Source of the DNA: Aquisediminimonas profunda
GTDB taxonomy: Bacteria > Pseudomonadota > Alphaproteobacteria > Sphingomonadales > Sphingomonadaceae
Direction of reading: 5' to 3'
Assembly (NCBI RefSeq): GCF_019443285.1
Contig: NZ_CP080327.1
Span: forward strand, 1,360,001 to 1,424,000
DNA: 64,000 bases
Below are positions 4,735 through 9,807 of the stretch, piece after piece; position 1 is the first letter of the stretch; the number at the start of each line of letters is the position of its first letter. The translations under genes and the position numbers were made by a program. Below the pieces are notes generated by a model. It saw nothing but the letters and a program-made list of their open reading frames with translations, made no database searches and was not told where the DNA came from.

Positions 4735-5790
4735 ATGACGATGAAAGGCCCGAAGTCCCTGCCCCTGGCGGCAGACCTTTATGGGGACCTGCTCGACACC
4801 ACACCGGCCGAGCAGGTCGGATGGCGAGCCTATTGGCCCGGGCTTGCCATGACGATCATCGCTGCGTTGGCTGCTGCCTGGCTCTCGGATCATTATGGAG
4901 CGCCCAGAATGTTGATGGGCCTGCTGATCGGGCTTGCCTTCAATTTTGCCAATGCAGACGTGCGGCTTCATCCCGGGCTCGGTTTTGCATCCAAGACACT
5001 GCTGCGCTGGGGCATCGTTGTGACCGGGCTCCAGGTCACGGTCTGGCAAATCATCGATCTTGGTTGGGCGAGCTTTGCATGGATTGCAGCCATGGTCGCG
5101 CTCGTGACCGCCACGGGTGCCCTTGCGGCAAGGTCACTCCGGCTGGATGCCGGATTCGGCGTCCTGGCCGGCGGATCAGTAGCCATTTGCGGCGCATCTG
5201 CAGCCCTCGCCCTCTCGAGCGTTCTGGGTGAGCGACGGTCGAGCCAAGCGCAATTGACCCTTGTGCTGGTGACCATCTCCGCTGCAAGTGCGATTGCCAT
5301 GTCGCTCTATCCTGTCCTGACGCACATCTTCGGACTGACGGATCGGCAGTCTGGCTGGCTTGTCGGCGGCTCAATCCACGATGTCGCGCAAGCGCTTGGT
5401 GCAGGCTATTCCATATCCGACGAGGCCGGAGAAACCGCGGCCATAGTCAAGCTGACGCGGGTGGCCCTGCTGGCTCCTGCGCTTGCTGTCGTGGCGCTGA
5501 TCTTTCCGGCCGATGCCGGCCAAAAGCGTGCGCGCATCGAACTGCCCTGGTTTGTGGTCGGCTTCCTGGTTTTGGGCGCAATCAATTCATTCCTGCCGCT
5601 CCCGGCCGTTGCGGCGGGCTGGGCCAAGACCGCGACTCAGGCTTTGCTCCTGCTTGCTGTGACCGCAACGGGCATCCGATCTCCCATGCAGCTTCTGCTG
5701 AATCAGGGATGGCGAAGCGCCATTCCCGTTATAGCCGCAACCCTTGTCGCTTTTGCGCTTAGCCTTGCTGGGGCATGGATCATCGCATGA
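4735..5790 (+). CDS. YeiH/UPF0324-family integral membrane transporter, putative sulfate exporter
   Basis: The 351-residue protein is mostly hydrophobic, with about ten predicted membrane segments. It carries family motifs such as GSVAICGASAALAL, the loop SIHDVAQALGAG, and a gene-end segment of paired helices. YeiH relatives are annotated as putative sulfate exporters, but the substrate is poorly established. An N-terminal hydrophilic stretch of about 30 residues precedes the first helix. The stop codon overlaps the start of the downstream N-acetyltransferase (ATGA at 5787-5790), indicating translational coupling. Confidence 0.85.
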   Translation: MTMKGPKSLPLAADLYGDLLDTTPAEQVGWRAYWPGLAMTIIAALAAAWLSDHYGAPRMLMGLLIGLAFNFANADVRLHPGLGFASKTLLRWGIVVTGLQVTVWQIIDLGWASFAWIAAMVALVTATGALAARSLRLDAGFGVLAGGSVAICGASAALALSSVLGERRSSQAQLTLVLVTISAASAIAMSLYPVLTHIFGLTDRQSGWLVGGSIHDVAQALGAGYSISDEAGETAAIVKLTRVALLAPALAVVALIFPADAGQKRARIELPWFVVGFLVLGAINSFLPLPAVAAGWAKTATQALLLLAVTATGIRSPMQLLLNQGWRSAIPVIAATLVAFALSLAGAWIIA

Positions 5791-6599
5791 CGGAACTCCC
5801 GGACTATTTCGAACGGATAGGATATACGGGTCAAAACGCGCCTAGCCTCGCAACCCTCGAAGGTGTCTTTCGTTCGCACATTGGCGCAATTCCGTTTGAG
5901 AATCTTGACGTGCAGCTTGGACGGCCAGTGTCTCTCGATCTTGCTGCTATTCGCAAAAAGCTGATTGCTGAACGCCGCGGCGGCTGGTGTTTCGAGCAGA
6001 ACGGCTTGTTGGGCTGGGCCCTTGCGCAGATGGGCTTCACAGTGCGCAGGGTCTCCGGAGGAGTGCTTCGCAGCATGAACGGCGATGCGGCGCTTGGGAA
6101 TCACCTTGCGCTGATCGTGACAATTGATCGCCCCTATCTGGTGGACGCTGGATTCGGAGGCAGCCTTGCAGCGCCTATTCCGCTCGCGGAAGGGAGCCAC
6201 GATCATGAGCCCTTCAAGCTGACATTGACGAAACTTGACGGCGGCTTCTGGCGGTTTGAAGAGCAACTAGGAGATGCGCCTTTCAATTTCGATTTCCGCG
6301 ATGAGCCTGCCGATGAAGATCTGTTCGCGCGCCAATGTGCGTGGCTGCAGACTGACCCGGGTTCACCCTTCGTCAACAATCTCGTCGCCCAGCGCCGGGT
6401 CGGTGCGTTGCATCGTGTGTTGCGGGGAAGGGTTTTTTCGACAGCGGGTCCGGAAGGGCAGACCAGCCAAGTGCTGGATGATGCAGATGCTCTTGTTTCC
6501 GTTCTGCGAGACCACTTTGCCCTGAATGTTCCGGAAATCACCCAACTTTGGCCGGCCATCTGTGCCCGGCATCAGGAAGTTACAGCCTCCCGGTCGTAA
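5787..6599 (+). CDS. nat: Arylamine N-acetyltransferase
   Basis: NAT enzymes move an acetyl or acyl group from CoA to arylamines, hydrazines or related amines. The Cys-His-Asp triad is visible: Cys68 in RGGWCFEQN, His106 in GNHLAL and Asp120 in YLVDAGFG. The 270-residue length is normal. The start at 5787 is preferred over 5775 because it gives the ATGA overlap with the upstream transporter gene and the expected N-terminus (MTELPDYFERIGY). The physiological substrate is unknown. Coupling to a YeiH-type exporter is noted as context only. Confidence 0.93.
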   Translation: MTELPDYFERIGYTGQNAPSLATLEGVFRSHIGAIPFENLDVQLGRPVSLDLAAIRKKLIAERRGGWCFEQNGLLGWALAQMGFTVRRVSGGVLRSMNGDAALGNHLALIVTIDRPYLVDAGFGGSLAAPIPLAEGSHDHEPFKLTLTKLDGGFWRFEEQLGDAPFNFDFRDEPADEDLFARQCAWLQTDPGSPFVNNLVAQRRVGALHRVLRGRVFSTAGPEGQTSQVLDDADALVSVLRDHFALNVPEITQLWPAICARHQEVTASRS

Positions 6600-6641
6600 A
6601 TCGCGCGTCATAGACTGTGAAAAGGGATGTGATAACAGTCG

Positions 6642-6670
6642 TTGACATTCACATCACAATGTGAATAATC
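6642..6670 (+). promoter_or_regulatory. Predicted promoter with perfect palindrome, upstream of the HTH-RibB gene
   Basis: TTGACA at 6642-6647 is a perfect -35 box. AATAAT/ATAATC at about 6664-6670 serves as -10 with 16-17 bp spacing. Between and overlapping them lies a perfect inverted repeat, ATTCACAT-CACA-ATGTGAAT (6647-6666). A transcript would begin about at 6676-6677, which is the ATG itself, so the mRNA is probably leaderless. The palindrome sits where a repressor would block RNA polymerase, and the gene it precedes encodes a helix-turn-helix domain. Confidence 0.7.
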
Positions 6671-6676
6671 GGGGTC

Positions 6677-7951
6677 ATGTCTACACAACTGATCGAAAAA
6701 GTCCGCAAGCTTGTCACTGAAGGTGGCATGTCGCGGTCTGGCTTGGCCCGTGCGGCAGGCCTTCATGCCAACACCTTGCGTGACCTGGAAGAGGCGCATT
6801 GGAATCCGACAGCCGAAACGCTGCGCAAGCTTGAGACCTTCCTCTTTTCAAGCAATGACGGGCCAAGCCTGGTGCCGATCGAAGAGATCATCGAAGAAGC
6901 GCGCAACGGGCGCATGTTCATTCTCGTCGATGATGAAGATCGCGAGAATGAGGGCGATCTGATCATCCCCGCTCAGATGGCAACGCCAGATGCAATCAAT
7001 TTCATGGCGATGCACGGTCGCGGACTGATCTGCCTGACGCTCACAAAGTCGCGTATTGACCAACTCGGTCTTGAGTTGATGAGCAGGGCCAATGGCACCC
7101 GGCATGAGACAGCCTTTACAACTTCGATTGAAGCCCGCGAGGGAGTCACGACGGGCATTTCGGCTGCCGATCGAGCACGCACAGTGTCGGTTGCAATCGA
7201 TGCCTCAAAGGGCCGGGACGACATCGTCACGCCGGGCCATGTTTTCCCGCTGATCGCGCGTGACGGCGGCGTGCTTGTCCGCGCAGGGCACACGGAAGCT
7301 GCCGTCGATATTTCGAGACTGGCAGGCCTCAATCCTTCAGGCGTGATCTGCGAGATCATGAAGGACGACGGCACTATGGCGCGAATGGATGATCTTGTTC
7401 CCTTCGCCAGGTTGCACAATCTGAAAATGGGTACGATCCGCGATCTCATCGAATACAGGATGCGCCACGATCACCTTGTTGAACGGGCGAGCGAGAGCAG
7501 CTTTGTCTCCGATTATGGAGGTGACTGGCGGGCCATGACCTATCGCAACAAGGTCGATGGGTCGACAAATGTGGTGCTCCAGAAGGGACATGTCGTACCG
7601 GAAGAGCCGACGCTGGTCAGGATGCATTCCATCTCGATCTTTTCGGATGTTCTGGGTCTTGCCGGACCGCGCAAACGGACCTTGCAACGCGCCATGTCGG
7701 AAATCGGGCGTCATGGTTCGGGCGTGATTGTGATTCTCATGCCGAACGATTCGCAGAAACTGCAGAATGAAATCGGCGGCAGCCGGCCTGAAGGTGGCGA
7801 CTTGCGCGACTATGGCATTGGAGCGCAAATTCTTGCGGACCTCGGGGTTCACGAGATGATCCTCCTTACCAATGCACATCGCAACGTTGTGGGCCTGGAA
7901 GGCTATGGCTTGCAGGTAGTGGGCGAACGTGCAATTCCCATGAGTGATTGA
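6677..7951 (+). CDS. ribB: 3,4-dihydroxy-2-butanone-4-phosphate synthase with N-terminal HTH and degenerate GTP cyclohydrolase II domain
   Basis: Three parts are visible in 424 residues. Residues 1-57 form an XRE-like helix-turn-helix (SRSGLARAAGLHANTLRDLE, then WNPTAETLRKLETFL). Residues 66-270 are the DHBP synthase domain, making the four-carbon unit of riboflavin from ribulose 5-phosphate; the acidic loop RENEGDL, TPGHVFPL and RAGHTEAAVD are intact. Residues 271-424 resemble GTP cyclohydrolase II, but the zinc site is gone: LVRMHSISIFSDVLGLAG has none of the three expected cysteines. The C-terminal NDYG-like core (DYGIGAQILADLGV) is kept. So RibB activity is expected and RibA activity is not. 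Start at 6677 keeps the first HTH helix; a Met at residue 18 has a better ribosome site (GAAGG) but would cut that helix. Confidence 0.9.
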   Translation: MSTQLIEKVRKLVTEGGMSRSGLARAAGLHANTLRDLEEAHWNPTAETLRKLETFLFSSNDGPSLVPIEEIIEEARNGRMFILVDDEDRENEGDLIIPAQMATPDAINFMAMHGRGLICLTLTKSRIDQLGLELMSRANGTRHETAFTTSIEAREGVTTGISAADRARTVSVAIDASKGRDDIVTPGHVFPLIARDGGVLVRAGHTEAAVDISRLAGLNPSGVICEIMKDDGTMARMDDLVPFARLHNLKMGTIRDLIEYRMRHDHLVERASESSFVSDYGGDWRAMTYRNKVDGSTNVVLQKGHVVPEEPTLVRMHSISIFSDVLGLAGPRKRTLQRAMSEIGRHGSGVIVILMPNDSQKLQNEIGGSRPEGGDLRDYGIGAQILADLGVHEMILLTNAHRNVVGLEGYGLQVVGERAIPMSD

Positions 7952-8052: not shown

Positions 8053-9807
8053 ATGCTTGATGTCTTGATCAAGGGCGGAAGCCTCATTGATGGCCTTGGC
8101 GGCGACGCACGTCGTGCGGACTTAGGCATCAAGGATGGTCGCATTGCCGAGATTGCTTCAGCAATTTCGACGCCCGCGAAAGAGACGGTTGATGCAACCG
8201 GGGCAATCGTTACGCCCGGCTTTATCGATGTGCATACGCATTATGATGGGCAGGTCTGCTGGGATGACCAGCTGGATCCATCTGCCGGGCACGGCGTCAC
8301 GACAGTCGTGATGGGCAATTGCGGGGTTGGCTTTGCGCCATCACCTCCCGGCGGCGAGCTCGAACTGATCGAGGTGATGGAAGGCGTCGAAGATATTCCC
8401 GGCACCGCTCTTTATGAAGGCGTGCCCTGGGGCGCATGGGAGAGCTTTCCTGAATATATGGATTATCTCGATACCCGCAGATACGCGCTCGATATCAGTG
8501 CACAGATTCCGCATGCGGCCCTTCGCAACTATGTGATGGGTGAACGCGGCCGGGCGAACGATCCCGCAACGCCCGAGGACATGTCGAAGATGGCTGCACT
8601 TGTGGAGGACGCGCTCAAGGCAGGAGCGATAGGCTTTTCCACGTCGAGGACGATCGGACATCGGACGATGTCGGGTGACCCCATTCCCGGGACCTATGCA
8701 GCGGACGAGGAAGTTCTGGAGCTCGCGGCAGCAATGCGCCGGGCAGGTCGGGGTGTATTTGAGCTGATCCCGGGCGGCACAGTCGGCGATCTTGCGGTGC
8801 TGGGTTGGGAGCACACGACTCTCGAGCAGGAAGTCGCCCTGATGGACAAGGTGTCGCATGTCAGCCAGCGGCCCGTGACCTTCACTTTGGTCCAGAACGC
8901 CGATCATCGTTCAGCCTGGCGTGATGTGTTGAGCCAGATTGAGCAGTGCAATGCGAACGGCGCCCGGCTTTATCCGCAGGTGGCGTCACGTCCGATTGGC
9001 CTGGTGACCAATATCCAGACCTACCACATGTTTCAGCGGCGCGAGACTTATATGAAGCTGGCGCACTTGCCGCTGCCAGAACGTCTGGCTGAAATGCGCA
9101 AGCCGGATGTTCGTTCGGCCATTCTGGCGGATCGCGATATCTCTTCCGGCAAGGCCGGCATGATGGCCAACGCAAACACCATTTTCAGGCGGGCAGCTCC
9201 CAATCTGTACGAACTGGATCTGCCGATCGACTATGAGCCGACCAGCGACAAGCGCTTTGGCGAGCGTGCCAAGGCTACAGGCCAGACGGTCGAAGAATTC
9301 ATGTATGACTTCCTGATTGGCAATGACGGCCGGAATTTCGCAATTCAGCTGGGAGCGAACTACTATAACGGCAATTTCGACGTGATCCGCGAAATGCTCC
9401 TTCATCCGGACACGATCACCGGGCTAAGCGATGCGGGCGCACATGTGAACCTTATCTTTGACGGCGTCGCGCCGACCTACCAGATGATCCACTGGGCACG
9501 CGATCGCACACGCGGCGAGGGGCTTCCGCTCGAATTCATCATTGCCAAACAGACCAAGCGAAATGCCGACCTCTACGGCATGAACGACCGGGGATCGCTG
9601 GAAGTCGGCAAGCGTGCAGATATCAATGTGATCGATTTTGAGCGGCTCAGCCTTGGCGAACTCGAAGTAAGGAGTGACCTCCCCGCAGGTGGCACGCGCA
9701 TTCTACAACCGGCCTCAGGCTATCTGGCGACCTTTGTGAACGGTGTGCAGACGCGCAAGGACGATCTCGACACCGGAGCGCGTCCGGGTCGCCTGATGCG
9801 GAGCTGA
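8053..9807 (+). CDS. N-acyl-D-amino-acid deacylase family amidohydrolase
   Basis: The start at 8053 follows GGAGGGG (8041-8047); a TTG codon 15 bases upstream is less likely. The 584-residue protein is a metal-dependent amidohydrolase of the D-aminoacylase type. It has [13 protein letters not shown] (HxH metal site), [20 protein letters not shown], a late LSDAGAHV segment carrying the catalytic Asp, and a C-terminal beta-sandwich tail ([16 protein letters not shown]). Relatives remove acyl groups from N-acyl-D-amino acids, though many members have unassigned substrates. It stands alone, about 100 bases after ribB. Confidence 0.88.

Follow-up and report, generated by a model that had tools for sequence, protein, structure and literature searches.

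A DHBP synthase of Sphingomonadaceae with an N-terminal helix-turn-helix and an operator-like palindrome in its promoter, a candidate self-repressing enzyme of riboflavin synthesis

Enzymes of metabolism can bind the operators of their own genes, as do PutA, BirA, and NadR, which are other enzymes in other pathways than the case described here. In many bacteria, the rib genes are controlled by the FMN riboswitch (RFN, RF00050), which is a control by RNA. RibBX was reportedly described in a 2013 paper as a RibB with a RibA-like domain that lacks GTP cyclohydrolase II (GCH II) function. Similar in architecture to the protein reported here is RbkR, an archaeal fusion of a helix-turn-helix (HTH) and a riboflavin kinase, which is presented as a bifunctional protein, enzyme and gene regulator in one, that has a relative lacking the HTH (PMC8305020), and for which control of a riboflavin operon has been predicted (PMC10746257). 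RbkR is likewise a flavin-pathway enzyme with an N-terminal HTH, but its enzyme part is a kinase and it belongs to the Archaea, whereas the enzyme here is a DHBP synthase, so that the protein is not an RbkR; the likeness is one of architecture. In the alphaproteobacterium Wolbachia, wBmxR1 and wBmxR2 bind the promoter of the riboflavin gene ribA (PMC3518464), but these are separate proteins acting in trans and not fused to an enzyme. Among the matches listed from the riboflavin-regulation literature, of which titles and abstract openings were available and most subscription papers were beyond reach, no report of an HTH-RibB was found; the text of a 2026 riboflavin review does not contain “helix-turn-helix,” “RbkR,” or “ribBX,” and that of a survey of proteobacterial regulons (PMC5343134) does not contain “riboflavin.” That an enzyme of the flavin pathway can possess an HTH of its own is already known from RbkR; the HTH-RibB variant is new with respect to these titles, abstract openings, and texts.

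The window analyzed is a stretch of 64,000 nucleotides from Aquisediminimonas profunda. On its plus strand, positions 6677 to 7951 encode a protein of 424 amino acids, as indicated by the open reading frame, its translation, and relatives matching over nearly the full length. The original prediction had recognized an XRE-like HTH (residues 1 to 57) fused to DHBP synthase, and the Pfam borders agree with this: a Cro/CI-type HTH at residues 10 to 56 (6704 to 6844) is followed by the DHBP synthase (RibB) domain at residues 69 to 260 (6881 to 7456). With an HTH_3 score of 25.7 bits (cut-off, 23), the HTH belongs to the Cro/CI (XRE, HTH_3) family, and the best PDB sequences for this part were 6jq1 (E value of 5e-4), followed by DdrO, 6rnz (E value of 0.0024). 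Residues R25, A26, G28, L29, H30, N32, L34, and R35 and the stretch W42 to T45 of the HTH were invariant in 34 aligned sequences. The RibB domain covers the whole Pfam model (1 to 191 of 191; E value of 3.7e-83) and contains the motifs DDEDRENEGD and RAGHTEA, nearly invariant in 34 sequences, so that it appears complete with its conserved motifs, as in RibBX. Not mentioned in the original prediction was a C-terminal RibA-like “X” domain at residues 270 to 417 (7484 to 7927; Pfam GTP_cyclohydro2, E value of 9.3e-34), in which an alignment to the mycobacterial RibBA 4i14 shows that the zinc-cysteine motifs of GCH II are not kept. Among solved structures, 6mnz is the best match by sequence; titled RibBX, it is a two-domain DHBP synthase of Acinetobacter baumannii that likewise possesses RibB plus a second domain but no HTH; residues 67 to 415 of the window protein align to residues 5 to 362 of its 373-residue chain. 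A RibB domain, a GCH II-like domain without zinc cysteines, and 6mnz as the best relative identify the window protein, as far as its sequence tells, as a RibBX with an extra N-terminal HTH.

By the Pfam borders, about 12 residues separate the HTH from the enzyme domain, and a gap of this length could couple the enzyme dimer to a pair of HTHs. A structure predicted from the 34 sequences had a mean pLDDT of 70.7 and a poor RibB core, with values below 50 at residues 132 to 165 and 167 to 203 of the monomer model. When this model was used in Foldseek, enzyme parts alone were matched among the 50 matches listed, with 6mnz in third place. The model was set aside as a guide to mechanism, its RibB core being too weak and the dimer not being addressed.

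Upstream of the gene lies the palindrome ATTCACAT-CACA-ATGTGAAT at positions 6647 to 6666, with two exact arms of 8 nucleotides, a 4-nucleotide center, and an end 10 bp before the ATG. The inner arms are TCACAT (6649 to 6654) and ATGTGA (6659 to 6664). A perfect palindrome in front of ribB had been claimed before; it is indeed exact, it is conserved in the relatives with an HTH, and no other match with up to three mismatches exists in the window (mean of 0.00 in 100 shuffles). The left edge of the palindrome overlaps a −35-like TTGACA (6642 to 6647, plus strand) and its right edge a −10-like AATAAT (6664 to 6669, plus strand). The proposed overlap with a TTGACA/AATAAT promoter was also borne out: the two elements, 16 nucleotides apart, agree with the consensus in 11 of 12 bases, the −35 element alone in 6 of 6. 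The scan of the window for such promoters yielded 1 site versus 1.1 expected by chance, so that the promoter match alone is unremarkable. With the usual spacing from the −10 element, transcription should start near the ATG at 6677. Reading of the sequence revealed, in addition to the features listed in the original prediction, an upstream half-site ATGTGA (6627 to 6632, plus strand), 32 bp from the right arm of the main palindrome.

The palindrome was evaluated in relatives. The motif TCACAT-N4-ATGTGA with at most 2 mismatches in 12 positions was present within about 200 nucleotides upstream in 94/94 ribBX loci with the HTH and in 0/42 without it, so that fusion and palindrome occur together in the sphingomonad homologues; these loci had been selected for their similarity to the window protein and are related, and the 94 loci do not represent 94 independent events. 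Exact motifs were found in 54 of the HTH-containing loci, one mismatch in 34, and two in 6, while the best locus without an HTH had three; in shuffled upstream regions, about 1.5 of 94 loci would be expected to reach two mismatches or fewer. Sphingomonadaceae in the broad sense, the same family, are also represented among the loci without HTH. These numbers derive from 138 fetched loci, sorted by likeness to the window HTH into 95 with and 43 without the domain. Two were dropped from the palindrome count, L074 with 39 nucleotides upstream and L105 with 87; the latter is a gene cut by a contig end that had been wrongly sorted as lacking the HTH, of which a remnant is visible. For loci with the HTH, the 200 nucleotides were counted back from the start and 30 nucleotides of the gene were added; for loci without it, whose start codon was unsure, the DHBP synthase domain served as the reference point instead. 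Paralogues from the same genome are among the loci (L002 and L003; L157 and L158; L179).

Without the near-duplicates L035 and L159, 92 loci remained for the alignments (53 exact, 33 with one mismatch, and 6 with two). The core palindrome is located 11 to 14 nucleotides before the start codon in 57/92. In all 57 of these common-spacing loci, CACA-N6-TGTG is invariant, with variation in the 4-nucleotide center and the flanks; a TTG-like element stands at a fixed spacing in front of the palindrome, 49 of the 57 have a T at column −6, and letters resembling AATGTGAT are repeatedly seen near −21. In 53/92 loci, an ATGTGA half-site precedes the main right arm by 30 to 33 bp, mostly by 32 bp (31 loci, as in the window, about three helix turns) or 31 bp (13 loci), and a looser half-site 28 to 36 bp away on either side is found in 68/92. 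In 25/92 loci, the best palindrome is at least 24 nucleotides from the start, and 23 of these 25 contain a half-site-like stretch within 40 nucleotides of the start. In a quick tree built from the enzyme part of 127 of the 138 loci, which does not distinguish gain from loss, the HTH and the palindrome each required at least 8 changes, 5 of the HTH changes being forced by well-supported branches. HTH and palindrome went the same way in 5/5 independent pairs on supported branches, a number of pairs that cannot reach a P value of 0.05.

The genome of the window contains one copy of the exact WTCACATNNNNATGTGAW. With at most 2 mismatches, 15 sites versus 2 for the backwards control were obtained; the near-copies are one place with one mismatch, by eye inside an open reading frame, and 13 with two. 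In 249 genomes of the family, the exact 18-bp pattern occurs at 70 sites in 67 genomes and the reversed pattern at none, and 65 of the 70 sites are just upstream of an HTH-ribB gene: 52 of the 55 sites in genomes with the ribB place listed are 10 to 71 nucleotides upstream of the HTH-ribB match, and 13 of the remaining 15 are 11 to 57 nucleotides upstream of an HTH-ribB. The 182 genomes without an exact match include many with the HTH, whose operators differ from the pattern in one or two positions. When 60 relatives were searched with a slightly looser pattern, the 36 family genomes contained 27 sites, spread over 20 genomes, and the 24 genomes of other families a single one; by coordinates, 20 of the 27 are immediately upstream of ribB. 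Five exact sites are elsewhere (genomes G029, G137, G138, G223, and G228), the one in G029 in a prophage-like region by eye, with ribB genes of this genome that have no HTH; the seven looser-pattern sites not before ribB belong to G011 (five), G029, and G035. The exact sites away from ribB and the five of G011 make other targets possible.

The ribB message had been predicted to be leaderless, with its start at the ATG. A Shine-Dalgarno-like sequence (AGGA, GGAG, GAGG, or AAGG within the 16 nucleotides before the start codon) was present in 3/57 close-spaced ribB loci versus 54/55 ribH starts of these loci, the latter picked by a simple rule as the nearest ATG or GTG. Together with the position of the −35 and −10 elements, this absence in 54 of 57 supports a likely leaderless transcript starting near 6677. 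The layout does not appear to be universal, since the 25 of 92 loci with a palindrome farther from the start are spaced otherwise and 10 of these 25 possess a Shine-Dalgarno-like sequence. Control of ribB by an FMN riboswitch was considered and rejected. As predicted for the region upstream of ribB, none was found: no Rfam riboswitch reached the gathering score in the window, RF00050 was not found in the genome of the window, and 0/36 family genomes had a match over the cut-off with strict filters that lose weak matches (one match, in G009, was below the cut-off). In other families of the order, the FMN riboswitch was present in 4/24 genomes.

These data can be combined into a mechanism that is considered quite probable, in which a dimer of HTH-RibBX would repress its own promoter through the palindrome, with a further contact at the upstream half-site and a leaderless mRNA. 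Binding by the HTH, repression rather than activation, and the leaderless start are the parts of it that we infer. The family’s usual RibBX-type DHBP synthase would have received a DNA-binding domain at its N terminus. Other RibB enzymes are homodimers, and the two HTHs of an HTH-RibBX homodimer would bind TCACAT-N4-ATGTGA; the bound dimer would fill the spacer between −35 and −10 and keep the RNA polymerase out, and a further dimer or protomer may occupy the half-site about 32 bp, or three helical turns, upstream. With the mRNA starting at or close to the ATG, the operator would be the only obvious control point. ribH, directly downstream in most fetched relatives, would belong to the same unit as ribB, while ribB stands apart from ribE and ribH in the genome of the window. 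With respect to a possible autogenous control by the enzyme, the candidate operator is located in the own promoter and is near-unique in the genomes. The strength of the repression may be set by ribulose 5-phosphate, by a flavin, or by the protein amount alone. A tentative extension, somewhat doubtful as a whole, would be that a family-wide self-repressing enzyme replaces RNA control, the HTH lying immediately next to the DHBP synthase dimer, with ribulose 5-phosphate at the active site or a flavin at the X domain shifting the HTH spacing and thereby setting the promoter; the X domain, without a known catalytic role, would be the candidate sensor.

Evaluation of this mechanism needs to consider other uses of the palindrome. 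Since the operator fills the promoter spacer, a location typical of repressor sites, and the −35 match of the window is already 6/6, repression by the HTH-RibBX dimer is the most likely reading, and activation of ribB or ribB-ribH by the same protein is unlikely, even if the half-site upstream of −35 could place a protein beside the RNA polymerase. A separate transcription factor could bind the palindrome, with the HTH of RibB doing something else or nothing; binding by the RibB HTH is a prediction, and a few sites exist away from ribB. Such a factor would have to account for a palindrome that tracks the HTH in 94/94 versus 0/42 loci even with members of the same family in the HTH-free set. 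In addition, the genome of the window contains no close relative of the HTH, the next one having 29% identity at an E value of 0.42, and a general regulator would be expected to have more than about one exact site per genome, which makes a factor of this kind improbable.

Alternatively, the palindrome could be a hairpin in the leader RNA that is bound by the HTH or masks the start codon. A stem of 8 bp with a loop of 4 nucleotides could form if the region were transcribed, and in 57/92 loci the core ends 11 to 14 nucleotides ahead of the start codon. Deviations in the arms, which in a hairpin should favor G-U, show no such preference, with 9 G-U versus 30 other non-Watson-Crick pairs and, at position 6, 11 C-A versus 8 U-G; this fits a DNA site with two equal halves and disfavors the RNA reading. 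The −35-like element in front of the palindrome at fixed spacing and the half-sites repeated at 30 to 33 bp, in agreement with DNA helical phasing, point in the same direction, and a role as hairpin is considered very improbable.

If repression by HTH-RibBX is correct, the protein would be a bacterial counterpart of the archaeal RbkR, built on another enzyme, and an example of a vitamin pathway governed by an enzyme that represses itself, a task left to a riboswitch in other bacteria; for the RibX domain, which otherwise lacks an explanation, a role would then be possible. The operator-promoter pair, a short element, could serve as a reporter of riboflavin synthesis. The site, its spacing, the transcription start, and the dependence on the HTH are each predictions that can be tested in ordinary laboratory strains.

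Concerning its distribution, RibBX was found at an E value of 1e-90 in 245 of 249 family genomes that were at least 90% complete. The best 150 matches came from 150 genomes; 149 of them began at residues 1 to 7, and in the remaining match, truncated at a contig end, the last part of an HTH is visible. This list favors matches with the HTH, since the HTH adds score, and thirteen more family genomes outside the best 150 possess it, so that the fusion is present in at least 162/249 family genomes. Outside the family, no fusion was found among the best 150 matches from 289 genomes of the class, 193 of which had a match; none of the out-of-family matches in this list began before residue 17. Six matches beginning at residues 17 to 38 had no HTH on reading and were rejected, their N termini being by eye the tail of the preceding gene or a short unrelated stretch. 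By organism names, the fusion seems to be a trait of the Sphingomonadaceae in the broad sense, and it is absent in some Sphingomonas. Apparent in-frame stops in six ribB matches of the family were the terminal stop or outside the gene, with none inside the six genes.

The window ribB is flanked by genes for an N-acetyltransferase (Acetyltransf_2; 5775 to 6599) and an amidohydrolase (Amidohydro_3; 8053 to 9807), both assigned by Pfam, and no riboflavin genes adjoin. On contig C1 of the window genome (G000), ribE (954252 to 954848) and ribH (953781 to 954194) are adjacent on the minus strand, their matched parts separated by about 57 bases, and no ribB match is present there, while several relatives of the same genus have ribB at this ribE-ribH place. 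In the 94 loci with the HTH, ribH is directly downstream in at least 73, ribE directly upstream in at least 23, and both in at least 18, numbers that are lower bounds due to short flanks in some loci. The window ribB has apparently moved out of a ribE/ribH-type operon. An open reading frame with the CDCG motif of true RibA is located elsewhere in the genome (L005).

Three further RibB-like places in this genome, also absent from the original prediction, are two RibBX-like genes without HTH and one distant RibB-like open reading frame. The RibBX-like copies have 63% (L002; residues 50 to 419) and 53% (residues 64 to 418) identity to the window protein. In L002 (G000:C1:1200270-1201376), which adjoins an acyl-CoA dehydrogenase-like open reading frame, DDEHSQSKAD replaces DDEDRENEGD, so that the protein is probably inactive or in another role. 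The third RibBX-like gene, L003 (G000:C1:2996449-2997525), has an intact-looking motif and flavin reductase-like and enoyl-CoA hydratase-like neighbors, and perhaps serves a flavin-dependent catabolic cluster. Gene names in these two loci, as well as in L150 to L153 and L215, were assigned by eye from translations of open reading frames.

In G011, a genome of the same genus, the five operator palindromes away from ribB are found in L150 (contig C77; 2672 to 2814) and L151 (contig C255; 2555 to 2707), three before a lon-like and two near a DAHP synthase-like open reading frame, and represent either a wider regulon or a spreading repeat. In G137, an exact operator-like palindrome (L215; 1529 to 1546) lies some 1.5 kb past the end of HTH-ribB, and the promoter of this HTH-ribB itself contains only a weaker copy. 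A contig labeled Actinobacteria bacterium 21-64-8 (L073) carries a sphingomonad-type HTH-ribB with the operator and is probably misbinned.
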